This document shows positions 1,871 to 19,694 of a DNA stretch of 21,466 bases, piece after piece. A program made the position numbers and the translations under genes. This DNA comes from Diplocarpon mali. Lineage: Eukaryota > Ascomycota > Leotiomycetes > Helotiales > Drepanopezizaceae. Within the stretch, counting starts at the first letter, position 1. Each line of letters begins with the position of its first letter. A model generated the notes under the pieces. That model did not search any database. It was not told where the DNA came from and saw nothing but the letters and a program-made list of their open reading frames with translations. The stretch spans positions 1 to 21,466 of the forward strand of contig JAENRP010000522.1 in assembly GCA_024741835.1 (NCBI GenBank). Direction: 5' to 3'.

Positions 1871-2084
1871 ACAAGTCTACTTTAGAAGAAGAGTTTGCCT
1901 TAGCTGAGTTTATAGTTAAGGCTATAGCTTTGCGCCTTATCTTAGAACTTCTATAGCTTAAGGGAGGTCTTATTAGCTTAAATAACCTTATTAATAATAT
2001 AGTAGTTTACTATATTGTACTCGACCTTAGACATTAGGTCGGCAGGTGCCTCTATTAGCGCAATTGGCGCAATCGTTACTTGTA

Positions 2085-2200
2085 GGCTAGGCCTAGGAGT
2101 AGAATCGATCTACGCTAAAGTTGCTCATAAGCTGGGCCTAGGAGTGGAATCGATCTGCGCTAAAGTTGCTTATAGGCCGGGCCTAGGAGTGGAATCGCCT
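2085..2200 (-). repeat. TPRP linker module, three copies (gypsy RNase H to integrase)
   Basis: Three units at exactly 45-bp spacing (reference agt at 2098, 2143 and 2188 on the plus strand), so each is 15 codons. In pol frame each encodes DSTPRP followed by GL or SL, then a stop or Gln and ATLAQI. On DNA each core is an imperfect inverted repeat: arm gcttataggcc at 2168-2178, centre g, arm ggcctaggagt at 2180-2190. The same module occurs in the copia elements. Confidence 0.85.
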
Positions 2201-2429
2201 TTAGTGGCAAGTACTTCTATAGAGAGCTTATTATTAGGTAAGAGCTGCTAATAGCATAAAGCTCGTTTCCTAGCCTTAAGAGAGGTCAGCTCCTAGTCTT
2301 AATATAAGAGTGTATTAGCTAGCGTATTCATTATGCCTATTTAGTATATGATAAGGAAGTTGAAGTTAGCGAAGAACTCCGCTTAGCAAGCCTACTAGGC
2401 TATTAAGTCCTTAGTTATTATAAAGTACT

Positions 2430-2760
2430 TAAAGGCTCTATAATTTATATATATATATACTATTTTCTAGGCCTTAAGTAGCTCTGCCTTATACTAGTAG
2501 AACGATTTAAAAATCGCTAAGAGCTCCTTATTATAAATAGGGTAATTTAGCTTAGCGTTATTTATAGTCTTTAAGAAGTACCCGATTAGGTAGTAGTTAT
2601 CGTCTTTCTAGAGTTAGGAGAGTACGCCAGCGACTATACTATTAGAAGCATCGGTCTTAAGCCTTATCTACTTCTAAGGGTAATAGTAGTATAAAATCGG
2701 AGTTATTTAAAGGCTTAAGCATAGAGTTTCTTAAGCTTCTTTATAAGCATTATTAAAATC
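2430..2760 (-). other. gypsy RNase H domain
   Basis: Downstream of RT in the same frame: VAGVLSQ-like strand (about 2620-2640, Gln now a stop), then YLIGYFL and LNYPIYNKELLAI, the usual LNYxxxxKELLAI motif of Ty3/gypsy RNase H, and a helix-rich tail. It is followed by the triple TPRP linker module at 2085-2200. Confidence 0.8.
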
Positions 2761-2929
2761 AAAAGGAATGTTTCCTATAAAAGCTATTAAAAGTCGGCAG
2801 ATACAACTATAGCCTTAAATGAACCTTTAATAGAAGTTACAAAACCTTAAGAAGCTTTATATATTATATATATTCTTAGCGTATTTCTACTCTTAAATGA
2901 TTAAGACCTTATTAGGGTTTACCTTAATT

Positions 2930-3480
2930 TTATAAACTCTAATAATAAACCTTAAGAACTTAATCTTAATAACCCTAAACTCGCTTTTCTTAATATCTAC
3001 TTAAAGGCTATAATATTAGAGAATTCTTAAGATCTTCTTAATATAAATCTTATAATCAAGGGAGTTTTCTAAGTAGATTAGAATATTATTTAAGTAAGTA
3101 GAATAAAAATCGTTGAGGTAGTTAAGGAGAATATTATTAATAAACCGCTAAAAGGTGGCAGGCCTATTAGTTAGCCTGAATAGCAAAACCTTATATTTAT
3201 AGGTCTTATAATATATGCGAAAGGTAGTTAGGTCCTTAGCATTAGCTAATATACGGATATAGTAAAAGGCTTATTATATATTGATTTTTATAAAAATATA
3301 AGCTTTTAATATATATGCTATTATCTTATCAATAAGGGGAATCGGGTAGGGGTCTCTCTTTATTAAAGCGTTTAATTTCCAATAATCAATATATAAATAT
3401 AAGGAGTTATTAGCTTTTTTAATAAAGAAGATTAAGGCTACTTAAGGAGAACTCAAAGCTTTAATAAATCCTTTATATAG
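2930..3480 (-). other. gypsy reverse transcriptase domain
   Basis: Clear RT motifs in one minus-strand frame: GFIKALSSP and LIFFIKKANN (fingers), YLYIDYWKLNALIKRDPYP (the D-Y-R-x-L-N motif), then LLFRLTNRPATF followed by RFINNILLNYLN, and YLNNILIYLENSLDYK. The polymerase signature YxDD is YLNN at 3085-3096; both Asp codons are now AAT, a G-to-A change that removes catalysis. A stop replaces Gln after PATF. Confidence 0.92.
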
Positions 3481-4061
3481 GTTCTTAAGAATATAGCTCT
3501 TAACTTCTAAGAGCTATTTATTAGTAAAGCGGCAAAGGGGTTTGATTATTAAGTTGTTTTCGCCTATTAGCTCGATTTTATAATCTACCCTTAGCCTAGG
3601 TTTTAATAGCTAATTAAAGGCCTAGCAACTGAAGACGTTCTTAAACTTAGTATACTAAGGCAGGAGCTTTTAATTTATTAGCTTATTATTACTCTTATAC
3701 TTAGCTTATAACGCCGAACTAAGGCTAAGGGAGCTAATTTCAGCTTGCCTAGCCAATTCTCAGCGATTAATCTCTTAATTTAGATTGTAAATAGAGCTTA
3801 TAAATGTGAACTCTTTAAGTGCCGGTTCTTAAGTTTATATAGCTTATCTTACCTTAGTTATAAAGCGGTAGTAGAAGGCGCTGATTGCTAAGGCTAAGAT
3901 TAAGCTAATTTAGTAAGCTATCTTTAAAGGAGCGTTTCTTTTTATTAAAAGAAAGAGCAAGGGGTCTAATACTCTTAGCAAGGCCTTCTTTATATAGTTC
4001 AGATCTCTTTTCAAGTCTTTAAAGAAACTACTATCCTTAAGTTTGCAAAAGGCCACTTATA

Positions 4062-4125
4062 GGCTAGGCTTAGGAGTAGAATTCGAGTTTGCAGTTTTCA
4101 CTTATAGGCCGGGCCTAGGAGTGAA
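4062..4125 (-). repeat. TPRP linker module, two copies (gypsy protease to RT)
   Basis: Two units 45 bp apart (agt at 4075-4077 and 4120-4122). In pol frame they encode STPKPSL and FTPRPGL. The second core (arms acttataggcc at 4100-4110 and ggcctaggagt at 4112-4122) matches the one at 2168-2190 at all but the first base, though it lies about 1.9 kb away in another linker. Confidence 0.85.
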
Positions 4126-4379
4126 ATTCAAGTTATTGCTTACTAATACTAAGAGCTAGGCTTAGGCCATTCTTAGGTCTTTGTCCTTAGCGTCTATTAT
4201 AGCTGCTTAACAATCGACGTCTTACTAGGCCATTAGGGGTTTTATTAACTATAAGAAATCGATTAATATATATCGATTAAAGTAAGAGATAATAGGCATA
4301 TCTTTAGGCTAAGATATACTATTTCTCCCTTTTTTATAAGACTATTTAAAGTTATAGTACTTTAAGAACTTCCTACTAA

Positions 4380-4730
4380 TTAAAATATCGATTGCTCTTA
4401 AGCTTATAATTAGGAAAGGGAAGTTTATTTATTGCCTATCGATTATAAGGGTAAGTAAGATAGCAAATCGAATAGTTTCTCCTTTAAGGCTATTATAGCT
4501 AATAGGGGTAATTAGTTTAAGTAGTTTAATAAACTTTACCTTAAGTCTTTAAAAGAGCTAGTATACTAAAGATATCTTAATAATATCGAAAATATTAGCT
4601 CTACTATTAATATAGGCAATTATTTTAATAAATGATCTATTTTAAGCTAGTTCTATAAGAACTAAAAACTGGCGGCCGCTTATTAATAAGTAGGAATCAA
4701 AATCTAAGTCTTTTTATAAATTATAACCTA
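4380..4730 (-). other. gypsy aspartic protease region
   Basis: The segment following Gag, in pol frame, includes FLVLIELA and ends near the LPFLIISLRAIDILI-like strand that precedes the second flap of pepsin-type retroviral proteases. The catalytic Asp-Ser/Thr-Gly triad is not readable, probably because of mutation. The call therefore rests on position and flanking hydrophobic pattern rather than on the active site. Confidence 0.5.
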
Positions 4731-4834
4731 TACTATAGTAAGAGTCTTTACTATAGCTTAGCAATTTCCTAATAGTAGGTCGTTTTCTATCTCAACTTTA
4801 GCTATTATAAACTTGCTTTGCTTCTTTAGCTTAA

Positions 4835-4880
4835 GGCAGTCTATCGCATAATAACTAAGGGCTTTGCAGTTATAGCAGAG
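4835..4880 (-). other. CCHC zinc knuckle of gypsy Gag
   Basis: Translated on the minus strand this reads CYNCKALSYYAIDC. It matches the C-x2-C-x4-H-x4-C nucleocapsid knuckle except that the His is Tyr, as expected from a C-to-T change in CAY. It fixes the Gag reading frame near the Gag/Pol junction. Confidence 0.75.
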
Positions 4881-5881
4881 ACTAAATGATAGCTTTAGGC
4901 TAGCGGACCTTTCTTAGTAAGCTACTAGCAAAGGGGAACGAATGCAAGGAGCTAAGGAGGTAGCTATAGCTATAAGTCTCTATAACTCCCTTTTCAATAT
5001 GCCTAAGACGCGGTCCTTTAAAGGGGAGAATGCGATTGCAAAGGCGACTTATCAAGCGTTATAAGCTTCTTCTTACTTAATATTATAAGCCTTATAGTCC
5101 GCAATAGCTAAGAACTTATCTAAAGTAATATAATTATTATTTATTTTATACTTCTTTACTTAAAGGTTATTCTTTAAAGCTAGAGAGATCTTTTTATAAA
5201 TATTATTAAACTAGTAAGATTAATCGATCTTACTAGCTATAGCAAAGGTAATAAACTTGAATCGGAACTTATTATATAATATTAAACCTATAATTAGCTT
5301 ACTATATTTAAGTTTAGCAGATTAAATATAGTTATAGTTAAAGAACCTTTAATCTAAGATCCTAAGGATATTAGTAGTATATATAAACTTATTAGTAAAG
5401 ATAAGATCTATATATTATAAGATTAGGTTTTAAGCTTTACTTATTATATATTTAAAGTAGGTAGTAATTTAGTCCTCTTTTAAAATGAAATTACTTAAGT
5501 ACTTTTAAATAAATACCTTTATAACTATCTTTTAAGTATTATAAGTAATTTCACCTTAGTAGTTGCTAAAATGGGTTTAAGGGTACTTAATCTAATAGAA
5601 GTCGATAGCTAAGATTAAAGGTCGGATGATTAAAAGGTAATAGTTTAAAAGAGGCAGTAAGTCAGCGGTAAGGGACTGAGTATTCTAAGGGCTAGCATTT
5701 AAGGAAGAAGGGATAGTAGTATTATTTTAAAGAGCGGCGGCTATAGCAGCGCTAATAAAGTTCGCGATTTCAGCTTACTAAATAGCTAAAAAGAGAGGGG
5801 CCGATATAGTAAAGATAGATATTATTAAAGAGAGTATATCTTCTTCCTTAACTTCAATTAATAGAAAGGGAGTATTTTAAG

Positions 5882-5960
5882 AATCTACTTATAGGCTAGG
5901 CCTAGAAGTAGAATCTGTACTAAGGGAGGTAACTTCTTAAGTAGGCTTAGGAGGGGGAAT
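5882..5960 (-). repeat. TPRP linker module in gypsy Gag N-terminus
   Basis: One clear unit (core 5888-5909) encoding DSTSRPSL in the Gag frame, and a more degraded neighbour at about 5931-5956 encoding PPPKPT. The Gag frame differs from pol, yet the codon phase relative to the repeat is the same as in the pol copies. Confidence 0.65.
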
Positions 5961-6059
5961 ATCTCTAGGACTAGGGGTGGCAGTAAGGCCTATAGAACTA
6001 GTAGTAGTAAGGCCTAGTAGTAGAGGTGCGGTTAACCTTTCACTTCTCTTAAGTAGCAT

Positions 6060-6943
6060 AAGATTGGAGGTTATAAGTACTAACTCTTCTTATATTATCT
6101 AGTTTAGTTTAAAGGGACCTAATGTTAAATAGTAACCTATTTAAAAGGGGGAAGATTAGTATAAGTAGAGCTGTATATATTCTTAAAGCCTTCTAATAGA
6201 GTATATATTAAGGTATTATAGGTTTATAGATCTTAAGAGAGAAGGTTTTACTTTAGGATTATATCTCTTTACTAATTAAGAGTTGCAATAAGGTTGTATA
6301 AGGAGGGGTATAGTGCAAATCCGGGGAAGTAGGGTCTAAAGCTTATCACTCTACTAAAGTTGACCTAGTCCTAAATAGTATAGTATAACCTACTAAGGCT
6401 GATTAAGTCTCTATATATATATATAAGTATAAGTCCCCCAGTTTATACCCTAGTATAAGAAGGAAGGAGTGAGGAGCTTTGAAGAGTATAAGGAAGAGTC
6501 GATAAGTATAGGTCAATGGCTTATTCGCAAGGAGGGGTCTTCGAGGAGTCGAGTTGTATTCGAGGGTTTCGAAGGAGGGAGTAAGGAGCTTCGAAGAGTA
6601 TAAGGAAGAGTCGTTAACAAGTATAATAAGAGTTATCGAAGAGTATAAGGAGAGTTGTCGATAAGTATAAGGTCGATAAAAAAGAGTGGTATAAAGTGTT
6701 TATAAGAGAAGGAGAGAGTTAGGAAGAGAAAAGTTATTATACTACTCTAAGCAGCAGCCTATGCTAGCAAAGCGAGGGCATAGTGAATATATTTTTTTTT
6801 AAATTGAAATTAAAGGTGAGTTTCTATTTATAGAATGGAGTAGATAAAGGGTCGAAAAAACAAGCTAATCTTATATTTAAGGTTTATTATTTAGCTTCCT
6901 TTGAAAACTAGATTAATAAGATCTAGGTACTATATATAAGTTG
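6060..6943 (-). other. untranslated leader of the chromovirus
   Basis: No coding frame recognised. The stretch holds imperfect repeats (6465-6675), an alternating ta run at 6411-6424, and a poly-T run at about 6790-6800. It lies upstream of Gag on the minus strand and is broken at 6943/6944 by copia B; its continuation is at 19328. I could not identify a primer binding site or an LTR end here with confidence. Confidence 0.45.
6465..6675. repeat. imperfect leader repeats, three units
   Basis: Units at about 6468-6513, 6580-6625 and 6634-6672 share gaagagtataaggaagagtc followed by gataagtata or a variant. A gaggagtcgag motif lies between the first two. Such arrays in a leader or LTR may carry promoter or packaging signals, but nothing here shows a function. 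Confidence 0.65.
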
Positions 6944-6948
6944 CTTAA
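6944..6948. repeat. target site duplication of copia B, left
   Basis: cttaa, matched by 19323-19327. The rejoined empty site reads agttgcttaaggcagtt, which also occurs intact at 19365-19381, so B entered one of two short direct repeats. Confidence 0.85.
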
Positions 6949-7143
6949 TATTAAGATGGGTGATACAGCTATCACTCCGATGTATTATCATATGACCCTA
7001 TTGCTTAATCAGTCGGATATTAATACATATATAGCTATAGGGAAGAAAGGGGTAACCTTCCTTCTTTAACTCTTATTAATATATCGACTATCGACCTCTA
7101 AAAGCCTCCTTTACTTATTGCGCCGACTTACTTAAGCTTAATA
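6949..7143 (+). repeat. 5' LTR of copia B
   Basis: 195 bp, starting tattaagat and ending gcttaata, the mutated forms of TGTTGAG and CTCAACA termini. It aligns without gaps to 19128-19322 and, inverted, to 8730-8924 and 14720-14914. It directly precedes the primer binding site. Confidence 0.93.
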
Positions 7144-7158
7144 GGTTATAAGCCTTAG
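7144..7158 (+). other. primer binding site of copia B (internal tRNA-iMet type)
   Basis: ggttataagccttag begins at the base after the LTR. Allowing one RIP-type change it is GGTTATGAGCC, complementary to the anticodon-loop side of initiator methionine tRNA (CTCATAACC). Drosophila copia and relatives prime with such a half-tRNA fragment instead of the tRNA 3' end. The same site is present in element A. Confidence 0.75.
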
Positions 7159-7541
7159 ATAGACCGATAATAGATTATTAACTTCCTTTAAAAAGCACTT
7201 ACGCTGCAACTATTAGTAGGAAGTTGAATGAGACTTATAGTAAGAGGCAAGTAATCGGCGAATAGGAGGTATGATTCCCTATTTAGCTAACCTATATTGC
7301 AAGAGGTATAATTCCTTACTCTATAACCCTTTGGTACTATAAGAGGTATAATTCCTTACTTTACTATATTTTATAAGAGGTATAATTCCCTGCGTTATAG
7401 TCTAAAAACCCTTTTCGATAAGAGGACTTCCTTCCTATTTAATACTTCTATAATACCCGCTATTTAATCATTTCGACTTTTCGATAAGAGGAGTGCCCTT
7501 AACTATTTAATTTATTTGATTTTAATGCAATTCTATTCGAA
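7144..7541 (+). repeat. copia B leader with aagaggtataattcc repeats
   Basis: Non-coding leader between LTR and gag. It carries copies of (a/c)aagaggtataattcc starting near 7302, 7347 and 7375, a related aggaggtatgattcc near 7266, and two further degenerate gataagagga copies near 7419 and 7483. The same array is present inverted in element A (about 14370-14600), so it belongs to the family. Function unknown; it might be a packaging or translation signal. Confidence 0.7.
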
Positions 7542-8729
7542 ACGGCAATAGCTTCCGATTCCAATCGAAATACTAAACCCAAAGACCTCTAACTCTTTTA
7601 AAAGAACTAGCAATAATAGTTTAACGATTTAAAGCTTTACTTTAAGAGCAAAGGCATTAAAATAGCGATTTAAAAGACACTTATTAAATACATAAGAATA
7701 GCCTCCTATACTCCTTCTACCGATTTGTCTACTTCTACTTTAATAGCTAATACAATTGCTAAGGATTTGCCAAATATATTAAATAAGCTTAGCTTAAGAG
7801 CTTTAATAGATAATAATTAAAAATCCTAAAGGTAGATTTTAAATATGAAAAAGGAGAAGGAGTATAGGCTAGCCTTAGCTAAATATAAGCTTAAAATTAA
7901 TAAAGGTTTAAGCAATAAAGATTAAGATTTTATTTAAGTTTATAATAATGCGAAGATAAGATAAGATACTTTAAAGGTAAAATACTCTTAAATAACTACC
8001 TTTAATACCTAGCATCTATTATAGTAGATTACTTTATTTTAGTATAAAAAAGATAAAGATAGCAAGGATATAAATATAAATATAAGCTCTGCTTAATCTA
8101 TACTATATAAAGTAAGGAGGAGAGTAAGAGCCGTAGATCTTAAGATAGCTATGACTTTTAAGGAAACTTAGCTTTTTAGTTTCTTACTTAATAGCCTCTC
8201 TCTTAAGTTCGCTATTATAAAATAATCTCTTCTTATTTAACCTAACCTTAAGATCTATAAGAAGATCGACCTCCTTTGAACTATTAAGCAAGACCTTAAA
8301 GGACGCTTTAAATCGGCAAATACCGCATTATAAAGTAATAATAAGCCTAAGAAGAGGAAGGAGCGTAAGATAAGCCCTTAAGCTTATTAAGGATACTACT
8401 TCTATAATAGTACTTATAATATTACTAATTATAAAGTTAAAAGGCAATTAATTAATATAGTCGCTAGCTTTAATATTAAGAAGCAATTAAAGCAAAAGTT
8501 AAGAAGCAAACTGCCCTTATCTTACCAAAGGCCGCAACTACTAAAAAAAGGCAAAGGAAAAGGCTATTTAGCTAAAACTTTAGCAAATACTTCTAATAAT
8601 AATAGTAGGTTATCTAAATCTAAATCTACTTTTAATAATTTAAATAATAATTATAATAAAGATGCTTATATTTTAAAAGCCGATCTTTATAAGATCCTTG
8701 AATCCGATTAGTATAGTAATACTAGTTAT
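7542..8729 (+). pseudogene. gag-pol: Gag-Pol of copia B, 5' part (Gag to protease active site)
   Basis: First 396 codons of the polyprotein. The codon aligned with the ATG of element A is ACG here; the change runs opposite to, or predates, the usual C-to-T drift, so the true start is unsure. LKLYFKSKGIKIAI and related Gag text is followed by a degraded zinc knuckle (GYYFYNSTYNITNYK-like, 8389-8437) and by SNTS at 8715-8726, the position of the protease D-T-G, where GAT is AAT. The frame is cut by element A after 8729 and resumes in phase at 14920. Confidence 0.87.
8725..8729. repeat. target site duplication of copia A, left
   Basis: gttat, repeated at 14915-14919. The intact allele in element A reads gttgt at the matching codons, so the duplication can be checked against the uninterrupted paralogue. 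Confidence 0.9.
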
Positions 8730-8924
8730 TATTGAGCTTAAGTAAGTCGGCGCAATAGGTATAGGAAACTTCTAGAGGTCGATAGTCGATATATTAGTAA
8801 GAGTTAGGGAAGGAAGGTTACCCCTTTCTTCCCTATAGTTATATACGTATCAATATCCTACTGATTAAGTAGTAAGGTCATATGATAATACATTAGAGTA
8901 ATGGCTATATTACCTATCTTAATA
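8730..8924 (-). repeat. 3' LTR of copia A
   Basis: 195 bp, reading tattgagctt to tcttaata on the plus strand. Ungapped match to 14720-14914 with 17 transitions and no transversion. It retains the TGAG of the terminal TGTTGAG motif that other copies have lost. Confidence 0.95.
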
Positions 8925-8941
8925 CCCTTACTTAGACCTTA
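8925..8941 (-). other. polypurine tract of copia A
   Basis: On the minus strand taaggtctaagtaaggg ends at the LTR boundary; the stop codon TAA of Gag-Pol (8939-8941) is its first triplet. The equivalent in B is 19111-19127. This would prime plus-strand synthesis. Confidence 0.6.
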
Positions 8942-9064
8942 CTCCGATTGACTTATAGTTGGGAAAATAATAATTATCCTTTTGCGCTAATCCAACTCTT
9001 AGGTATCTCTTTAAATTAAAAATAATTAATTAATAGCAACTTCTATTGAAATTACTATTCCTAC

Positions 9065-9215
9065 TCGCGGGGTAGGACTAGGAGTCAAATTTCCTAAAAG
9101 ATATTCCTTTATAAGACTATATGACTTGACTCGCGGTCTAGGCCTAGGAGTCGATTTAAAAACTTTTCTTTATAAGACTATATGACCTAACTTATAGGGT
9201 AGGCCTAGGAGTTGT
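9065..9215 (-). repeat. TPRP linker modules in the C-terminal tail of copia A
   Basis: Three cores with a shared flank tttataagactatatgac between them. Two are in the usual phase (TPSPTPRV near 9090, STPRPRPRV near 9150). The third, agt at 9210-9212, is in another phase and encodes LLGLPYKLG instead. It is the only clear copy out of phase. The B counterpart is 18837-18982. Confidence 0.8.
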
Positions 9216-9269
9216 CCTTAAGCCTGCTAAGCCCCTACTGTCTTTTATAACCTTAGTATATCTTTAAAC

Positions 9270-9700
9270 GCTTCGAACTTTGCAACTGTCTTTAGTAGCT
9301 TTGTAAATCCATCTACTACTATTCGATCGGTTAGGATATAGGTGATCGATAACTTATTCTTTGCAATAAGGTTGCGGATAAAGTAGTAGGTAATATTAAT
9401 ATATTTCGATCGCTTATATAAGTATGGATTCTTTGCAAGTGCAATCGCCCTTATATTATCTGCTTAGAGATTAATATAGTTCTTATCTTATCTAATATAC
9501 TTAGCGAAACCTATATCTTTTAGAACTTAGGCAATTTATAATCCTTGCTTGCAATTTAATGATATTAATATATATTTGGCCTTAGTGCTTGCAGTAGCTA
9601 TTGATTTCTGCTTCCTACTTTCTTATAATATAGGTCCGCTATATAGTACTACTACGCTTTTAGATATACTTTTCCGACCTTTTATATTTGCTTAATCGGA
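9270..9700 (-). other. copia A RNase H
   Basis: KVYTDSDxANIKGRKSISK (the Y-x-D-x-D-W-A-G motif, with Trp a stop and Gly Asn), SRKQKSIATASTKAKYI (the S-T-x-E-A-E-Y motif with Glu to Lys changes), ADNIRAIALAKNP and YLYKRSKYINITYYFIRN. The order is that of copia RNase H. Confidence 0.88.
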
Positions 9701-9889
9701 ATCAGTATATACCTTAAGCTTTGCGCTTATATATTTCATTAGTCTATATCTTACCTTTTATATAATTATTAATTGAAGGTACCTTCTAAGTCGCTTGATT
9801 GCATTCTTATATTAAATCGTCGGATCCTTTAGGTTCTGACTAAGTTGCTTAGTAATAAAGGCGATATCTAGTCTTATATATACTATAGT

Positions 9890-10640
9890 ATATATAATTG
9901 CTCTAATATCCTATTAGTACTTCTTCAAATCTCCTCTCTACTTATTTTTATTAATAGGCTTTAACTTATTATACTTTCCTTCAATTAGAGTACGCTTTAG
10001 CTTAAAGTTGGGAGCATAAGTAGAGAGTCCTATTTAGTCTAAGATCTTCTTAATATACTGCTCTTAATTTAACTAAAGTTCTCAAGTAGAGCAGTTCCTT
10101 ATAATATAGATGCCAAGGATCTTATGAATTCCCCTTAGATCCTTGGTATTAAAATGTTTCTAAATTATTATAAAGAACCAATCCAATTGAGTAGTTGTTT
10201 TCGCAGCTATAGTAATATCGTCGATATATAATAGCAACTTGATTCTACGCTTAGTATAGGTAAATAGACAAGGGTTAGCTAGGCTTTAAATGAATCCTAT
10301 TTCTATTAGAGTAGAACTATATAAGAGGTTCTAATTATAAGCTGATTGTTTAAGCCTATAGATACTGCAGAGTATATAAAGAGAGTGGCTAGCGTATATA
10401 AAAATACTATTAGGTCGGAAGAGAAAAATCCGTTCCTTTATAGTCGCTTTAGTAAATGCATTTTTAATATTATACTATCTGCATTCAAGGTCCTTAGTAG
10501 CTACTATTACTATAAATATGCAAAGGGTATCTATGCGAACTATCGGCGCGAATATATCGAAGTAGTCTTCTTTATACTATTAGGAGAAGCCCTTAGTTAT
10601 AAGCCTTGCCTTATAACGCTTTAGGGTTCTATTTGCATAT
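9890..10640 (-). other. copia A reverse transcriptase
   Basis: In frame on the minus strand: YKARLIAKGF-like start, DYFDIFAP, QYNIKNAF, LYGLKQ-type segment, then LLLYIDDITI with an intact YIDD at 10217-10228, and KDLRGIHKILGI-like sequence. The polymerase Asp pair survives here but is YINN in element B (17824-17835). Confidence 0.9.
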
Positions 10641-11479
10641 ATCTTAATTGTAAAGACCTACTTTATTAATACTAGGTTCATATCCTTTGGCATCGGTTCC
10701 TCTATCTATATGCCATTTGCAGTAAGAGAGCTTATCTCCTTGTAGATTGCCTCACTCTATACTGCTCCATTCTCTAGGTTATTAATAGCTTTATTATACG
10801 TCTTTAGAAAAGAGATTTTTATTATCCCTCTAGCGGCTAGGAACGCATTATCTTTATTAAAGCTCTATTAAAGTTCGAGCTTATAGATCCTATGCGCTAT
10901 TATAGCCCAGATACACTTAGACTTGCATTTATTTAAGGTATCTTCTAGTTCTAGGTCTCTATTCCTCTTTAAGGACGTAGGTTCAGCTATAAGTTCTATA
11001 GGCTTATCATTTAAGGAACCGCTTTCTAATAGTAGAGGCTTATTATTACTTATACCTGTTTTAGGAATATCCTTTACTATAGGCACTTTAACTAAAGGGA
11101 TAATAATATTAAAGCTATTCTATACTTTAGGCAGTTCGCAGACAATAGGAATGGTCTGTTTGGCCTTTGGACGACTAGCTGGTCGTCGATCAGCGGGTGC
11201 GCTTAATATGCCTAAGCTAAGAGAAAGGGGTTATTAGTTCAGCTTAATAGTATTACTATTAAGTGGTATACCTTGCGAATCTCTAAGTATGCAGAGCTTT
11301 AAGGATAGCTCTTTCCTATTTTAAGATTTATCGAACTTAACTATTAAGGATATGATTACTTGCCTTAGATCTAGCGCATATACTATCTATTGCTTTATTA
11401 TCTATTTAATATACCTAACAAATATATACTCTCTACCTTAGTCTATTAGCTTCTTACTCTTTATACCCGCGGGCTAGGA

Positions 11480-12000
11480 CTTTAGGCTAATATAGGAGTA
11501 GCAGACGCTTCTAAAGATATAGATATAGTCTAGGCTTAGTTTCTATTTGAAATATGCCTTATATAGCAATATTCGGGTGCTATTAACTATTAGTCTATTA
11601 CCTATTCTATTTCGCAAGTATACGTTTACCTTAATCGCAAGGTCTTAGAATTCTAATAGTAGGTTAGTATCTTATAATAGAGCGCGATAGTTAGTCTTTG
11701 CTTACTAGATACTTCGCTCAGTGATGCCATTCTAATAGAAACCTTTATATATTATAGTTGGTTTATAATAAACTCCTTATTTTGCTTATTTATTAAGCTT
11801 TGCCTTAATCTCTAATGTGTTATTAGACCTAATAGCTATTAGCTTCAACTAGGTCTAGCATTCCTCTATCACTTTCTAAGTTTCCAGCTTTTCTATAAGC
11901 TTAGATTTGGTCTTAGTGCAAATGGTCTATATCTATTAAGTGGAGTTATCTACTATTTAAGAAAACCAATTATTTCCTTTAATTAAAGTTGTAAATAGTC
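11480..12000 (-). other. copia A integrase catalytic core
   Basis: Contains IVDNST (first acidic residue kept), TICTKTK, then IRSNN where the family has RSDN, so the second catalytic Asp is Asn. Later text (ALYYK, YCYIRHI, and a basic tail before 11480) fits the end of the core. Stops replace several Trp and Gln codons. Confidence 0.78.
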
Positions 12001-12059
12001 TAGTAATATTAATAGATATTAGCGCTAGTATCGAATCTTTCTATAGACTAAGCTTAGTT

Positions 12060-12225
12060 TACGTCCGATTTCGAAGTTTTATTAGCTTGCAAATTCGGCA
12101 TACCAGGCGATCCTTTAGTACTTAGATCTTCCGTTTTAGGGTCGAGACCTTATATAGGCCCTTCAATTTCTCTAGCCTTAGATGCGCAAATCTTCTATAT
12201 ATTAGCTAATACTTTAACAAGCTTT
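12060..12225 (-). other. copia A GAG-pre-integrase (zinc-binding) domain
   Basis: RRFAHLRLEKLKGLYKVS followed by KDRLVCRICKLIKLRN. The H-x-x-L pattern and the CxxC pair are those of the copia integrase N-terminal zinc-binding region. The Trp-His that normally precedes RRF is lost to a stop and Tyr. Confidence 0.85.
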
Positions 12226-12329
12226 TAGCTTCTAATAGCTTTAGTAGTCTATCGTCAGTTGATACTTCGTTATTAGCAGCTAGAAAGGACTAGTAATAGC
12301 AGTTCGAGGTTTTGCCGTTTTCCAATTGT

Positions 12330-12800
12330 AAGCCTGGCTTAGGAGTCGTTTTTAATAAAACCGCAAGATCTACTTGCGGTCTCGGCTTAGGAGTCGATTT
12401 CCTAAAAATGGCAAGATCTACTCGCAGTCTTAGCTTAAGAGTCGTTTCTAATAAATTTGCGAATTTCACTTGCGGTCCTAGCCTAAGAGTTATTTCTGCG
12501 AATTTCACTTGCGATCTTAGCTAAAGAGTCATTATTAGCGAATTTATAGAATCCACTTGCGGTCTTAGCCTAAGAGTTATTTCTGCTAAATTCACTTATA
12601 ATCCTAGCTTAAGAGTTATCTTTAAAGACACTTTACAATCCACCTATAGTCCTAGCTTAAGAGTTATTTTCGCGAATTTTACTTACGATCCTAGCTTAGG
12701 AGTCTATCTATTCTCCTTATCCTTACTTAATTGTATTAGGGCAGAGAGTGCACTTTCCTTAAAGGAATTCACTTATAGGTCTAGCCTAGGAGTCAATTTC
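12330..12800 (-). repeat. TPRP linker array of copia A, about ten units
   Basis: Ten copies of a (c/t)ttaggagt or taagagt core on the plus strand, starting (gag) at 12343, 12391, 12439, 12487, 12526, 12574, 12613, 12661, 12700 and 12790. Spacings are 48, 48, 48, 39, 48, 39, 48, 39 and 90 bp: every one a multiple of three. In the Gag-Pol frame the units encode TPKPRPQVDLA or ITLRLGPQVKFA, with 16- or 13-residue periods. The array lies between protease and the GAG-pre-integrase domain, a linker where extra sequence would be tolerated. Confidence 0.9.
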
Positions 12801-12899
12801 TATAATATCACCTTTAAGATAATATAAAGTCTATCTTTAATTTTAACCTTAAAGATCACTTTATAGTTGTTATTTATAAATTATATAAATTGATTATTA

Positions 12900-13150
12900 A
12901 AAACTCTAATATAATTCAACTTTATATAGATCTTACAGCTAGATAAGAGATTAATACCTAGGCTAGGCATAAGGAGAACATTTTGCAAAAGGAAAGAAAT
13001 GCTAGCGATATTCATTTCTATTATACCTATTGAGTTTATATATAACCTTCTACTACCAACCTTAATAGAGCGCCTTTTTATTTTAATAAGTGGGCCTTTA
13101 AATAGGTAGGGTTTATTAGTCATATATGCTATACAACTAGTATTATTATA
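12900..13150 (-). other. copia A aspartic protease
   Basis: ESDWYNNTSCIAYMT matches the copia-type protease start (W-x-D-T/S-G-x-x-x-H-M-T). The catalytic Asp is Asn (AAT at 13142-13144), Gly is Ser and His is Tyr. The rest of the domain, NKPYLFKGPLIKI through NVLLMPSLGINLLS, is unusually well kept, with 80 codons free of stops. Element A itself is inserted at the homologous codons of element B. Confidence 0.85.
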
Positions 13151-13424
13151 CCAATCGGATTCAGGGATCTTATAGAAATCGGCTTTTAAGATATAGGCAT
13201 CTTTATTATAATTATCGTCTGAATTATCAAAGGTAGATTTAGGTTTAAATAACCTACTATTATTATTAGAGGTATCTGCTAAAGTTCTGGCTAAATAGCC
13301 TTTTCCTTTACCTTTCCTTAATAGTTATAGCCTTTAGTAGGATAAAGGCAGTTTACTTTTTAACTTCTGCTTCAATTGCTTCTTAATATTAAAGCTAGCA
13401 ACTATATCGATCAGTTGCCTTTTA

Positions 13425-13475
13425 ACTTTACAATTAGTAATATTATAAGCACTATTATAGAAGTAGCATCCCTAA
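13425..13475 (-). other. degraded CCHC knuckle of copia A Gag
   Basis: The frame reads GCYFYNSAYNITNC: first and last Cys remain, the second Cys and the His are Tyr, as C-to-T or G-to-A changes would give. In active elements this knuckle binds RNA. It is followed by the basic KVKRQL segment. Confidence 0.65.
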
Positions 13476-14320
13476 TAAGCTTAAGGGCTTATCCTACGCT
13501 TATTCCTCTTCTTAAGCTTATTATTGCCTTATAACGCAGCATTTGCCGATTTAGAGTGTCCTTTAAGGTCTTGCTCAATAGTTCGAAGGAGGTCGATCTT
13601 CTTATAGATCTTAAGGTTAGGTTAGACGAGAAGAGATTGTTTCGCAATAGCGAACTTAGGAAGGAGGCTATTAAGTAGGAAACTAAAAAGCTGAGTTTCC
13701 CCAAAAGTCATAGCTATCCTAGGATCTGCGGCTCTTACTCTCCTCCTTACTTTATATAATATAAATTAGGCAGAGTCTATATTTATATCTATATCCTTAC
13801 TATCTTTATCTTTTCTATACTAAAATGAAATGATCTACTATAGTAGATGCTAGGTGTTAAAGGCAGTTGTTTAAGAGTATTTTGCCTTTAAAGTATCTTA
13901 TCTTATCTTCGCGTTATTATAAACTTAAATAAAATCTCAGTCTTTATCGCTTAAACCTCTATTGATTTTAAGTTTGCATTTGGCTAAGGCCAGCCTATAC
14001 TCCTTCTCCTTTTCTATATTCAAAATCTACTTTTAGGATTCTCGGTTATTATTTACTAAAGCTCTTAAGCTAAGCTTATTTAATATATTTAGCAAATCCT
14101 TAGCAGTTGTATTAGCTATTAAAGTAGAAGTAGACGAATTAGTAGAAGGAGTATAAGGGGCTATTCTTACGTATTTAATAAGTGTCTTTTGAATCGCTAT
14201 TTCAATGCCTTTACTCTTAAAGTAAAGCTCTAAATTGTCGAACTATTATTGCTAGTTCTTTCGAAAGAGTTAGAGGTCTCTAAGCTTAGTGTTTCGATCG
14301 GAATCAGATGCTATTGCCAT

Positions 14321-14719
14321 TTTAAATAGAATTGCGTTTAAAATCAAATAAATTAAATAGTTAAAGGCACTCCTCCTATCGAAAAGTTGAAATGATTAAA
14401 TAGCAGGTGTTATAGAAGTATTAAATAGGGAGGAAGTCCTCTTATCGAAAAGGGTTTTTAGGCTATAACATAGGGAATTACACCTCTTATAAAACATAGT
14501 AAAGCAAGGAATCACACCTCTTATAGTACCAAAGGGTTATAGAGCAAGGAATCACACCTTTTGTAATACAGGTTAGCTAAATAGGGAATCACACTTCCTA
14601 TTTGCCGATTGCTCGCCTCTTACTATAAGTCTTATTCAACTTCCTACTAATAGTTGCAGCGCAAGTGCTTTCTAAGGGAAGTTAATAATCTATTATCAGT
14701 CTATCTAAGGCTTATAACC
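14321..14719 (-). other. copia A leader with primer binding site
   Basis: Minus-strand leader of about 400 bp. The primer site ggttataagccttag occupies 14705-14719 directly after the 5' LTR and matches that of element B. The aagaggt(a/g)t(a/g)attcc repeat array lies at about 14440-14600 on the minus strand. No coding potential. Confidence 0.75.
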
Positions 14720-14914
14720 TATTAAGCTTAAGTGAGTCAGCGCAGTAGGTATAGGAAACTTCTAAAGGTCGATAGTTGATATATTAGTAAGAGTTAAGGA
14801 AGGAAGGTTACCCCTTTCTTCCCTATAGCTATATACGTATCAATATCCTACTGACTAAGCAGTAGGGTCATATGATAATACATCGGAGTGATGGCTATAT
14901 CACCCATCTCAATA
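14720..14914 (-). repeat. 5' LTR of copia A
   Basis: 195 bp; the plus strand reads tattaagctt to catctcaata. Followed at 14915 by the second gttat. At its right edge a plus-strand frame of 99 codons (14872-15171) starts inside the LTR and runs into B pol; it is a junction product, not a gene. Confidence 0.95.
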
Positions 14915-14919
14915 GTTAT
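14915..14919. repeat. target site duplication of copia A, right
   Basis: gttat, identical to 8725-8729. Element B codons resume at 14920 in the phase left at 8729. Confidence 0.9.
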
Positions 14920-15261
14920 ATAGTATATATAATTAATAAACCCTACCTATTTAAAGGCCCGCTTATTAAAATAAAAAGGCGCTCTATTAAAGTTGGTAGT
15001 AGAAGGTTATATATAAATTCAATAGGTATAATAGAGATAAATATCGCTAGCGTTTCTTTCCTTTTGCAAAATGTTCTCCTTATACCTAGCTTAAGTATTA
15101 ATCTTTTATCTAATTATAAGATCTATATAAAGTTAAATTATATAAGAGTTTTTAATAATCAATTTATATAGTTTATAAATAATAACTATAAAGTAATCTT
15201 TAAAGTTAAAATCAAAAATAGACTTTATATTATTTTAAAGGTAATATTATAGAAATTGACT

Positions 15262-15722
15262 TTTAAGCTAGACTTATAAATAGATTCCTTTAAGGAAAAT
15301 GCACTTTTTACCTTAATATAATTAAGCAAGGATAAGGAGAATAGATAGACTCTTAAGCTAAGATCGCAAGTGAAATTCGCAAAAATAACTCTTAAGCTAA
15401 GACTATAGGTAGATTATAAAGTATCTTTAAAGATAACTCTTAAGCTAGGATTATAAGTAAATCTAATAGAAATAACTCTTAGGCTAAGACTATAAGTAGA
15501 CTCTATAGATTCGCTAATAATAACTCTTAGGCTAAGATCGCAAGTGAAATTTGCAAAAATGACTCTTAGGCTAAGACTATAAGTAAAATTTGCAAATTTA
15601 TTAGAAACGACTCTTAAGCTAAAACTATAAGTAGATCTTGCCATTTCTAGGAAATCGACTTTTAAGCTAAGACCGTAAGTAGATCTCGCGGTTTTATTAA
15701 AAACAACTCTTAAGCTAAGCTT
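15262..15722 (+). repeat. TPRP linker array of copia B
   Basis: Same array as 12330-12800 of element A in the opposite orientation, with the core now gactcttaagcta or aactcttaggcta. Unit number and spacing are kept, so the array predates the split of the two copies. Most units are shifted toward T and A. Confidence 0.88.
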
Positions 15723-18700
15723 ACAATTGGAAAATAGTAAAACCTCGAACTATTATTACTAGTCCTTTCTAGCTACTAATAATAAAGTATTAACTAATAA
15801 TAGGCTACTAAAGCTATTAGAAGCTAAAAGCCTATTAAGGTATTAGCCAATATATAAAAGATTCGCGCATTTAAGGCTAAAGAAATTAAAAGGCCTATAT
15901 AAGGTCTTAACCTTAAAACAGAAGATCTAAGTACTAAAGGATCACTTAATATATTAAATTTGCAAGCTAATAAAACTTTAAAATCAGATATAAATTAAGC
16001 TTAATCTATAAAAAGATTCAATACTAGTACTAATATCTATTAATACTACTAGACTATTTACAACCTTAATCAAAGGAAATAATTAGTTTTCTTAAATAGT
16101 AGATAATTCCACTTAATAGATATAGACTATTTACGCTAAGACCAAATCTAAGCTTATAGAAAAGTTGGAAACTTAGAAAGTAATAAAGGAATGCTAAACC
16201 TAATTAAAACTAATAGCTATTAAGTCTAATAACGCATTAAAGATTAAAGCAAAGCTTAATAAATAGGTAAAATAAGGAGTTTATTATAAAATAATTATAA
16301 TATATAAAGGTTCCTATTAAAATAGTATTATTAAGTAAAGCATTTAGCAAGTAAAGATTGACTATCGCACTCTACTATAAGATGCTGACCTACTACTGGA
16401 ATTCTAAGACCTTGCGGTTAAAGTAGATATATACTTATAAAATAGAATAGGTAGTAGACTAATAGTTAATAGTATCCAAATATTACTATATAAGGCATAT
16501 TTTAAATAGAAACTAAGCTTAGACTATATCTGCGTCTTTAAAAGCGTCTACTACTCTTATATTAGCTTAAAGTCTTAGCCTATAGGTATAAAGAGTAAGA
16601 AGCTAATAGATTAAGGTAAAGAGTATATATTTATTAAGTATATTAAATAGATAATAAAGCAATAGATAGTATATGCGCTAGATCTAAGGCGAGTAATTAT
16701 ATCTTTAATAGTTAAGTTCGATAAATCTTAAAATAAGAGGGAGCTATCCTTAAAGCTTTATATACTTAGAGATTCGTAAAGTATACCACTCGATAGTAAT
16801 ACTATTAAGCCGAACTAATAACCCCTTTCTCTTAGCTTAGGCATATTAAGCGTACCTATTGATTAATAACCTATTAGTCGCCTAAAGGCCGAATAGACTA
16901 TTCCTATTATCTGCGAACTACTTAAAGTATAGAATAACTTTGATATTATTATCCCTTTAATTAAAGCACTTATAGTAAAGGATATTCTTAAAATAGGTAT
17001 AAGTAATAATAAGCCTTTACTATTAGAAAGCGATTCTTTAGATAATAAGCCTATAGAACCTATAGCTAAACCTACGTCTTTAAAGAGGAATAAAGACCTA
17101 GAATTAAAAGATACTTTAGATAAACGCGAGTCTAAGCGTATTTAAGCTATAATAGCGCATAGGATTTATAAGCTCGAACTTTAATAGAGCTTTAATAAAA
17201 ATAATACGTTCCTAGCCGCTAGGAAGATAATGAAAATCTCTTTTCTAAAGACGTATAATAAAGCTATTAATAACCTAAAGAATAAAGTAGTATAGAATAA
17301 GGCAATCTAAGAGGAAATAAGCTCTCTTATTATAAATGGTATATAAATATAGGAACTAACGCCAAAAGACGTAAACTTAGTTTTAATAAAGTGGGTCTTT
17401 ATAATTAAGATATATATAGATAGGACCCTAGAATGTTATAAAGCAAGACTTATAGCTAAGGACTTCTCCTAATAGTATAAAGAAGACTACTTCGATATAT
17501 TCGCGCTAATAGTTTGTATAAATACCCTTTGTATATTTTTAATAATAGTAGCTGCTAAGAACCTTAAATGCAAATAGTATAATATTAAGAATACATTTAC
17601 TAAAGCGATTATAAAGGAACGGATTTTTCTCTCTTAACTTAATAGTATTCCTATACGCGCTAGCCACTCTTTCTATATACTTCGCAGTATCTATAGGCTT
17701 AAATAATCAGCTTATAATTAAAACCTCTTATATAGCTCTACTCTAATAGAAATAGGATTCGTTTAAAGCCTAGCTAGCCCTTATTTATTTACCTATATTA
17801 AGCGTAGAATTAAATTACTATTATATATTAATAATATTACTATAGTTATAAAAACAATTACTTAATTGGATTAGTTCTTTATAATGATTTAGAAACGTTT
17901 TAATATTAAGGATCTAAAGGGAATTTATAAGATCCTTAGCATTTGCATTATAAGGAACCGTTCTACTTAAGAACTCTAGTTAAACTAAGAGTAGTATATT
18001 AAAAAGATCTTAGATCGAATAGGACTCTCTACTTATGCTCCTAACTTTAAGCTAAAGCGTACTCCAATTGAAGGAAAGTATAATAAGTTAGAGCCTATTA
18101 ATGAAAATAAGCAAAGAGTAGATCTAAAGAAGTACTAATAGGATATTAAAGCAATTATATATACTATAGTATATATAAGACTAGATATCGCCTTTATTAT
18201 TAAGCAACTTAGTAAGAACTTAAAGGATCTAACGATTTAATATAAGAATATAGTTAAGCGATTTAGAAAGTACCTTTGATTGATAATTATATAAAAGGTA
18301 AGATATAGACTAATAAAACATATAAGTGCAAAGCTTAAGGTATATATTAATTCCAACTAGGCAAATATAAAAGGTCGAAAAAGTATATTTAAAAGCATAG
18401 TAATACTATATAGTAGACCTATATTATAAGGAAGTAAGAAGTAGAAATTAATAGCTACTGCAAGCACTAAGGCCGAATATATATTAATATTATCAAATTG
18501 CAAGTAAGGATTATAAATTGCCTAAGTTTTAAAAGATATAGGTTTTATTAAGTATATTAAATAAGATAGGAATTATATTAATCTTTAAATAGATAATATA
18601 AGGGCGATTGCACTTATAAAGAATCTATACTTATATAAGCGATCGAAATATATTAATATTACTTACTACTTTATCTACAACCTTATTATAAAGAATAAGT

Positions 18701-18836
18701 TATTAATTACTTATATTTTAACCGATCGAATAGTAGCAAATGGATTTATAAAGCTATTAAAGATAATTGTAAAGTTTAAAGCATTTAAAGATATACTAAG
18801 GTTGCAAAAGATAGTAAGGGCTTAGTAGGCTTAAGG

Positions 18837-18982
18837 ACGACTCTTAAGCCTACCTTGCGAGTTAGGTTATATAGTCTTATAAAGGAAAGTTTTTAAATCG
18901 ACTCTTAAGCCTAGACTGCAAGTTAAGTTATATAGTCTTATAAAGGAACGCTTTTAGGAAAATTAACTCTTAGTCCTACCTT
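18837..18982 (+). repeat. TPRP linker modules in the C-terminal tail of copia B
   Basis: Counterpart of 9065-9215, with cgactcttaagcc and actcttagtcct cores separated by tatatagtcttataaagga. The first unit is again out of phase with the polyprotein, as in element A. Confidence 0.8.
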
Positions 18983-19127
18983 ATAAGTAGAGTTTAGTAA
19001 TTTTAATAAAAGTTACTATTAATTGATTGTTTTTAATTTAAAGAGATACTTAAGAGTTAGATTAGCGCAAAAGGATAATTGTTGTTTTCTTAATTATAGG
19101 TCAATTAGAGTAAGGTCTAAGTAAGGG

Positions 19128-19322
19128 TATTAAGATAGGTGATATAGCTATTACTCTAATATATTATCATATAACCCTATTACTTAATTAGTAGGATATT
19201 AATACGTATATAGCTATAGGGGAGAAAGGGGTAACCTTCCTTCCTTAACTCTTACTAATATATCGACTATCGACCTTTAGAAGCCTCCTTTACCTACTGC
19301 GCCGACTCATTTAAGCTCAATA
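19128..19322 (+). repeat. 3' LTR of copia B
   Basis: 195 bp, tattaagata to gctcaata, preceded by the purine-rich taaggtctaagtaaggg (19111-19127) and followed by the second cttaa (19323-19327). Confidence 0.94.
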
Positions 19323-19327: not shown

Positions 19328-19694
19328 GGCAGTTTATAATAGAAGAGTCGAGATTAAGAGATCGAGTTGCTTAAGGCAGTTCAAAGTAACGATTTTAAAA
19401 GGGGTAGATATTAAGCTTCTTAGCAAAGGTTAAGTTGATCTTTTCTTATATTATAACTTGCTTTAAAGCGTATAAAGAGGCGATAATCGAGTAACGCTGA
19501 CTATATTACCTTAAGAGGTACGCTATATAATAGAGAAGAAAAGATAAAGAAGAGAGAGTCTTTAGTAGAGCTCCTCTAGAATAAGTACAGGTGCTTTACT
19601 AGCGTGCACGTGATCCAGCCATCTTGCTACCTTAGCGTGCACCTGACTTCGACACGACATATGATATAACCGTGCACGTGATGCGGCCGTAACA
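19328..19694 (-). repeat. LTR-like segment, 5' end of a gypsy-type LTR
   Basis: In minus-strand sense it starts at 19694 with TGTTACGGCC. The first 69 bp match the chromovirus LTR (352-420) without gaps; beyond that the two diverge. Two CACGTG boxes (19607-19612, 19675-19680) lie within repeated gtgcacgtgat text. From about 19600 to 19694 CpA and TpG are plentiful, unlike everything around, so this stretch has largely escaped mutation. Toward 19328 it becomes AT-rich and continues, across copia B, into the leader at 6943. It may be the 5' LTR of the same insertion or of a related subfamily. Confidence 0.6.

Follow-up and report, generated by a model that had tools for sequence, protein, structure and literature searches.

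The contig JAENRP010000522.1 of Diplocarpon mali (assembly GCA_024741835.1; 21,466 nucleotides, referred to here in its entirety as the window) carries a near-palindromic DNA module, with a 23-bp core and a free centre base, that recurs inside gypsy and copia retrotransposons. Copies at unrelated sites share identity at the DNA level and occur in both orientations, at coding and apparently non-coding positions and in variable numbers of units. There is good support for the copying of a short palindrome into many linkers of transposons, but not for any vehicle that carried it. We consider it rather likely that dyad-symmetric DNA was copied into these linkers, read there as a spacer, amplified in tandem, spread by its hosts and then altered by repeat-induced point mutation (RIP).

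The core and its copies

The window is one contig of a 49.4-Mb assembly, from which an ORF for an RNA polymerase I subunit is 100% identical to Diplocarpon coronariae and 96% to D. rosae; the host is thus D. coronariae. About one third of the published genome of this species consists of repeats, chiefly Copia and Ty3, according to the accessible part of its description (PMC11527701). The GC content of the window is about 0.3, with a dinucleotide skew of the RIP type and no open frame of 150 amino acids, compared with a GC content of 0.50–0.54 at three polymerase-gene loci of the assembly. The less mutated copies (fetched loci L058–L063) point to a GC-rich core before RIP, approximately ACTC(C/G)CGGGCC-N-GGCCCG(C/G)GAGT, of which the TATAGGCC forms in the window are RIP products. 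The letters given in the original prediction, which was made from the window alone, therefore describe the window correctly but not the original form. Its 23-mer had seven matches in the window with at most three mismatches and none in 100 dinucleotide shuffles, and looser scans agreed on the places.

Genome-wide, TAGGCCNGGCCTA was found at 393 places, ACTTGTAGGCCNGGCCTAGGAGT gave 345 + 360 = 705 strand matches with up to two mismatches (few places being counted twice), and a RIP-tolerant form gave 431 + 415 = 846 strand matches, palindromic places being counted on both strands. The same patterns read backward, which served as the control, gave none in each case, and we estimate that the module is present at roughly 700 or more places. 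Positions were taken from the first approximately 100 places listed by each search, and the loci fetched from these were picked for carrying the module, so that module-free copies are invisible in this sample. The RIP-tolerant palindrome occurred at 212 unique places in the fetched loci (control 0). The 210 copies with enough flank fell into 28 flank clusters, and these into 19 sites in five transposon families after the units of single arrays had been merged by hand.

Agreement between clusters was 73% in the core and 31% in the flanks (378 pairs). In purine/pyrimidine code the values were 92.7% and 56.9% (378 pairs), which bears out the predicted sharing at the DNA level among unrelated elements. 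The six bases outside the core, reading S-R-A-W-T-Y outward, retain 0.33–0.83 bits at positions 2–6, and the symmetric unit is therefore about 35 bp. A comparison of core and flank divergence within clusters was dropped, being biased by the collecting pattern and by the mixing of tandem units in the clusters.

Coding copies read T-x-x-P-G-x-x-V, rich in proline and glycine. Because the pattern used to collect the copies fixed most positions, a peptide-based search was used instead of entropy, covering 34 sources in six frames with the reversed sequence as control. All 173 matches to [ST]xxPGxxV lay within three mismatches of the palindrome, whereas the 16 matches in the reversed sequence were all at seven or more. 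With a looser peptide motif, 253 of 291 matches were within four mismatches and 38 at six or more; the reversed sequence gave 42, all at six or more. Since 38 compares with 42, there is no excess of peptide matches with diverged DNA, which argues that the module was copied as DNA and disposes of the idea of a proline-rich linker without DNA identity. Of 69 units found by a stricter peptide motif, 68 had ACT as codon 1 and every one had GGC or GGA as codon 5, while the central CCN codon ended in C in 22, A in 18, G in 16 and T in 13; units of one array, or of copies of the same family, are not independent.

Elsewhere, Rfam gave no match at the gathering threshold for four sources, and no exact match was found in IMG/VR or in GTDB prokaryote contigs. 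When 478 residues of module peptides were compared with proteins, none of 7990 scored candidates reached E ≤ 1e-3, a result that says nothing on absence elsewhere because only candidates of approximately 263–836 residues were considered.

Positions, orientation and phase in the transposon families

The window contains members of two of the five families, gypsy family A and copia family B, with the following features:

2365–3423, minus strand: gypsy A reverse transcriptase (RT; about 3423–2947) and RNase H (about 2754–2365), Pfam PF00078, PF17919 and PF17917 scoring over the cut-off when stops are taken as X
2078–2190, minus strand: site A1, three 45-bp units with cores at 2078–2100, 2123–2145 and 2168–2190, downstream of RNase H (scan)
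4055–4122, minus strand: site A2, modules at 4055–4077 and 4100–4122, sharing the frame of RT and lying about 0.6 kb upstream of it (scan)
5887–5954, minus strand: site A3, a clear module at 5887–5909 and a degenerate one at 5932–5954, near the gypsy 5' end (scan)
8730–14914, minus strand: copia B element 1, long terminal repeats (LTRs) 8730–8924 and 14720–14914, nested in element 2
6949–19322, plus strand: copia B element 2, in two parts (6949–8729 and 14915–19322), interrupted by element 1
12324–12793, minus strand: site B1 of element 1, array of 48/39-bp units between the protease/Pol_BBD side and gag_pre-integrase
9063–9212, minus strand: site B2 of element 1, modules at 9063, 9129 and 9190, after RNase H and behind stops
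15259–15727, plus strand: site B1 array of element 2, matching that of element 1 (scan)
18838–18988, plus strand: site B2 of element 2, modules at about 18840, 18901 and 18966 (scan)

The RT and RNase H of gypsy A are degraded by RIP but share one frame, from which the coding strand and the reading frame of A1 and A2 follow. Site A1 encodes a peptide of the STPRPGLQV type in phase 0, has a less mutated counterpart in L059 and ranges from one to four units among copies. Site A3 is in phase 1 relative to the RT frame, which need not be that of gag. Near both ends of the window there is an 84% direct repeat (352–418 and 19626–19692), possibly pieces of gypsy LTRs. Positions 1–352 are 96.9% identical to L047 4824–5176, a far better match than is usual among the neighbouring repeat copies (mostly approximately 85–91%), and are therefore perhaps a piece of a younger repeat.

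The two copia elements, originally taken as separate, belong to one family (88–91% alike), one being nested in the other. A perfect 5-bp duplication, GTTAT, at 8725–8729 and 14915–14919 shows that copia B inserted into its own family, in the opposite orientation. Modules of the B1 array in element 1 start at 12324, 12372, 12420, 12468, 12507, 12555, 12594, 12642, 12681 and 12771, and the counterpart at L058 3649–4118 has ten modules in frame. The spacing of 61 bp places the B2 modules in two frames; in L058 their counterparts are at 7230, 7291 and 7357. In this related copy SH3 scored above the Pfam cut-off, Pol_BBD and gag_pre-integrase below it.

Family C is unclassified but very abundant, with a conserved 157-amino-acid frame (L050:2435–2905) that matched in all 150 scored of 471 candidate genome copies, and it carries sites C1–C7. 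L035 on either strand, portions of L036 and L041, and L058:1–1530 gave no Pfam match, and the 157-amino-acid frame had no match in PDB. Family D is a second copia with Retrotran_gag_2, SH3 and RVT_2 (sites D1–D3). Family E is an LTR element without detected RT, with 250-bp LTRs in one related copy (sites E1, E2, E5 and E6). At L050 4250–7147 an LTR element with no detected RT (250-bp LTRs, 93.6% alike) is inserted in a copia B module array, at or next to a core, and an element C adjoins a copia B module at L050 3971.

Orientation can be told from positions 5 and 19, which are C/C one way and G/G the other. The sense strand was taken from open reading frames (ORFs) or from the remainder of the element, and for C and E from open frames without Pfam support. 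Eleven sites are forward (A1–A3, B1, B2, C5–C7, D2, D3 and E2), three reversed (D1, E1 and E6) and five symmetric (C1–C4 and E5). The predicted uniform orientation thus holds for the elements of the window itself but not in general, the gag copies of D being reversed, as are E1 and E6. Sites D1 and D2 lie in a single reading frame of the same element in opposite orientations, and the open gag-side ORF L062:417–899 ends in a TREPGPGV and a TRGPGPGV copy.

A common codon phase had also been predicted, and phase 0 (ACT as a codon) was found at all five Pfam-anchored sites (A1, A2, B1, D1 and D2), for which random agreement has a probability of (1/3)^4, approximately 0.012. Four of four further sites (C4, C5, C6 and E1) are in phase 0 by open frame, a sample that is biased because RIP places stops in the other phases. 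The rule does not extend to the copies at 9063–9212, which stand behind stops in two frames. D3, likewise behind stops, shares the frame of RNase H in L051 and L038 and departs from it in L039, and E2 is out of phase with a 119-amino-acid frame that may be a leader. The predicted location of the module between domains, read in frame, is supported.

At the B1 linker an annotated D. coronariae protein (P0122) has eight units between protease and integrase. In three copia relatives (P0123, P0124 and P0125, with 52, 47 and 42% identity across roughly half the query) the stretch between the protease side and the gag_pre-integrase motif contains no TPxPG unit, as judged for P0124 by reading the sequence; P0126 and P0127 (25% identity) were left out. 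The module was therefore most likely added at B1. This comparison of protein sequences supports such an addition, and loss in the relatives would be the less simple alternative.

The original prediction also proposed looking for copies in host genes. Seven further places, picked from the listed matches blind to context, all lay in the same transposon families (one in A, two in C and four in D), and in this small sample no host-gene copy was seen. Target duplications and recent mobility likewise found no support.

Explanations of the repeated module

Under the explanation that we favour, at least 19 copying events would have placed a dyad element with a 23-bp core, about 35 bp with its weakly conserved outer bases, in the internal parts of five or more transposon families. 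Coding copies would be tolerated as in-frame T-x-x-P-G-x-x-V spacers between domains, and selection would retain only harmless in-frame copies. Slippage or unequal exchange may have multiplied them locally into tandem arrays (one to four units at A1, about ten at B1). The spread through the genome would be passive, carried by the host transposons and followed by RIP. Passage between families may be explained most readily by template switching among co-expressed element RNAs or by patch repair at palindrome-induced breaks.

Several observations weigh against this explanation. Neither an empty allele within a family nor a target duplication was found, the loci having been selected for the module and no empty site being available at the DNA level, and insertion of a free element is therefore not demonstrated. 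The comparison at an empty linker concerns one linker and three relatives of 42–52% identity, which may have lost the module. Orientations are skewed towards forward, and other contexts, host genes included, may exist among the many places that were not read. By positional entropy the centre varies freely (1.96 bits) and the third positions of the other codons are fixed to the same degree as the remaining positions (about 0.67 and 0.72, calculated by hand), but these values are only partly informative, since the collecting pattern itself specified most positions. Finally, passive tolerance explains the single phase no better than selection on the peptide does.

The last point leaves room for selection on the peptide after arrival. 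It also bears on a speculation that goes further, namely that TPxPGPxV is a functional spacer or polyprotein-processing segment selected at domain boundaries, the similarity between families being convergent or selected. Phase 0 in either orientation (at the anchored sites and the biased open-frame ones) and the position between domains are consistent with this. We nevertheless consider it unlikely: peptide matches with diverged DNA did not exceed the reversed-sequence level, copies after RNase H (B2, and D3 in L039 versus L051 and L038) stand in differing frames, one E copy is out of phase with its 119-amino-acid frame, and C2 and C3 keep a symmetric palindrome while the peptide is altered to TRRPGLRV in L035. 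The palindrome may alternatively act in transposon RNA as a hairpin or dimerisation signal, shared so that RT-less elements such as E are packaged. Folding is predicted for four of five single modules (z −2.1 to −4.7) and for a tandem pair (z −4.2), and E carries the module though no RT was detected in it, but one module from copia B1 shows no folding (z 0.3). Moreover, the arms do not covary: 204 of 308 cells were complementary, whereas redealing the right-arm letters among the 28 representatives gave 212 on average and reached the observed value in 1874 of 2000 shuffles, a test that RIP changes weaken. Selection for a hairpin was rejected on this ground, the symmetry looks ancestral and not kept pair by pair, and a role in RNA is in our judgement quite improbable.

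We give no better a chance to a putative site, selected in transposons, at which a dimeric protein would bind the DNA. The dyad symmetry, the free centre and the weak symmetric flanks would fit such a site, and the CGG-N7-CCG of the ancestral core resembles the sites of fungal Zn2Cys6 factors. The spacer, however, is conserved as well, and tandem arrays within coding linkers would be odd regulatory locations. Least credible of all, and close to untenable, is the view that these elements inherited the linker from a shared ancestor. Only the presence in several families, in loci selected for the module, speaks for it, whereas the linkers differ, the flanks are unrelated, and the hosts comprise gypsy, two types of copia and others. 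An ancestral linker in all relatives, named in the original prediction as what would overturn it, was not found at the one linker compared: the three copia relatives lack the motif, and descent is contradicted at B1.

Copying of dyad-symmetric DNA into transposon linkers can also be stated in a stronger form. The module would then be a nuclear eukaryotic counterpart, of approximately 23–35 bp, of the Rickettsia palindromic elements (RPEs), parasitising transposons and moving between unrelated families either way round, with coding copies filtered to T-x-x-P-G-x-x-V. We offer this tentatively, as a possibility that we doubt more than we believe.

Comparison with known palindromic repeats

The literature searches listed no account of a comparable module from fungal nuclei, and "palindrom" occurs in the main text of neither the D. 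coronariae nor the D. rosae genome paper, as far as these were accessible. The 19 sites, the orientation marker at positions 5 and 19 and the less mutated copies make the module datable, and its mode of copying testable, in related fungi.

Like miniature inverted-repeat transposable elements, the module is short inverted-repeat DNA in many copies, but it is far shorter and has no separate interior, and neither a target duplication (there being no DNA-level empty site) nor a parent transposase was found. The GC clusters of yeast mitochondria are selfish palindromic repeats of an organelle genome. In the organelles of Volvox, too, short palindromes are abundant and regarded as selfish DNA, according to the accessible part of the source (PMC2670323). 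Both are organellar, whereas the module is nuclear and seen only in transposons. With the palindromic amphipathic repeat coding elements (PARCELs), which are partly linked to mobile elements according to the portion of the report available (PMC2996958), it shares tandem coding repeats with dyad symmetry. As described there, PARCELs encode 25 amphipathic residues in ORFs of unassigned function and are thereby set apart from an 8-residue Pro/Gly spacer in units of approximately 13–22 residues.

Another likeness, one that the original prediction drew in principle with good reason, is to RPEs. These are short dyad-symmetric DNA found in frame in permissive segments of unrelated protein-coding genes, and similar elements are known from Wolbachia and Methanocaldococcus, according to the parts of the two sources available (PMC10969869, PMC2996958). 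The module is likewise dyad-symmetric DNA repeated at unrelated loci and, at the five Pfam-anchored and four open-frame sites, stands in frame within ORFs, with an empty counterpart for B1 only. RPEs, however, are about 150 bp long, prokaryotic and located in host genes, whereas the module has a 23-bp core with information fading about 6 bp outside it, and resides in a fungal nucleus, where every examined copy is in transposons or their repeats. In-frame palindromic insertions have so far come from a few prokaryotes. If true, a case from the nucleus of a fungus, seen only in transposons, would mean that very short DNA is able to travel between unrelated mobile elements as a hitch-hiker and to give proteins new segments.

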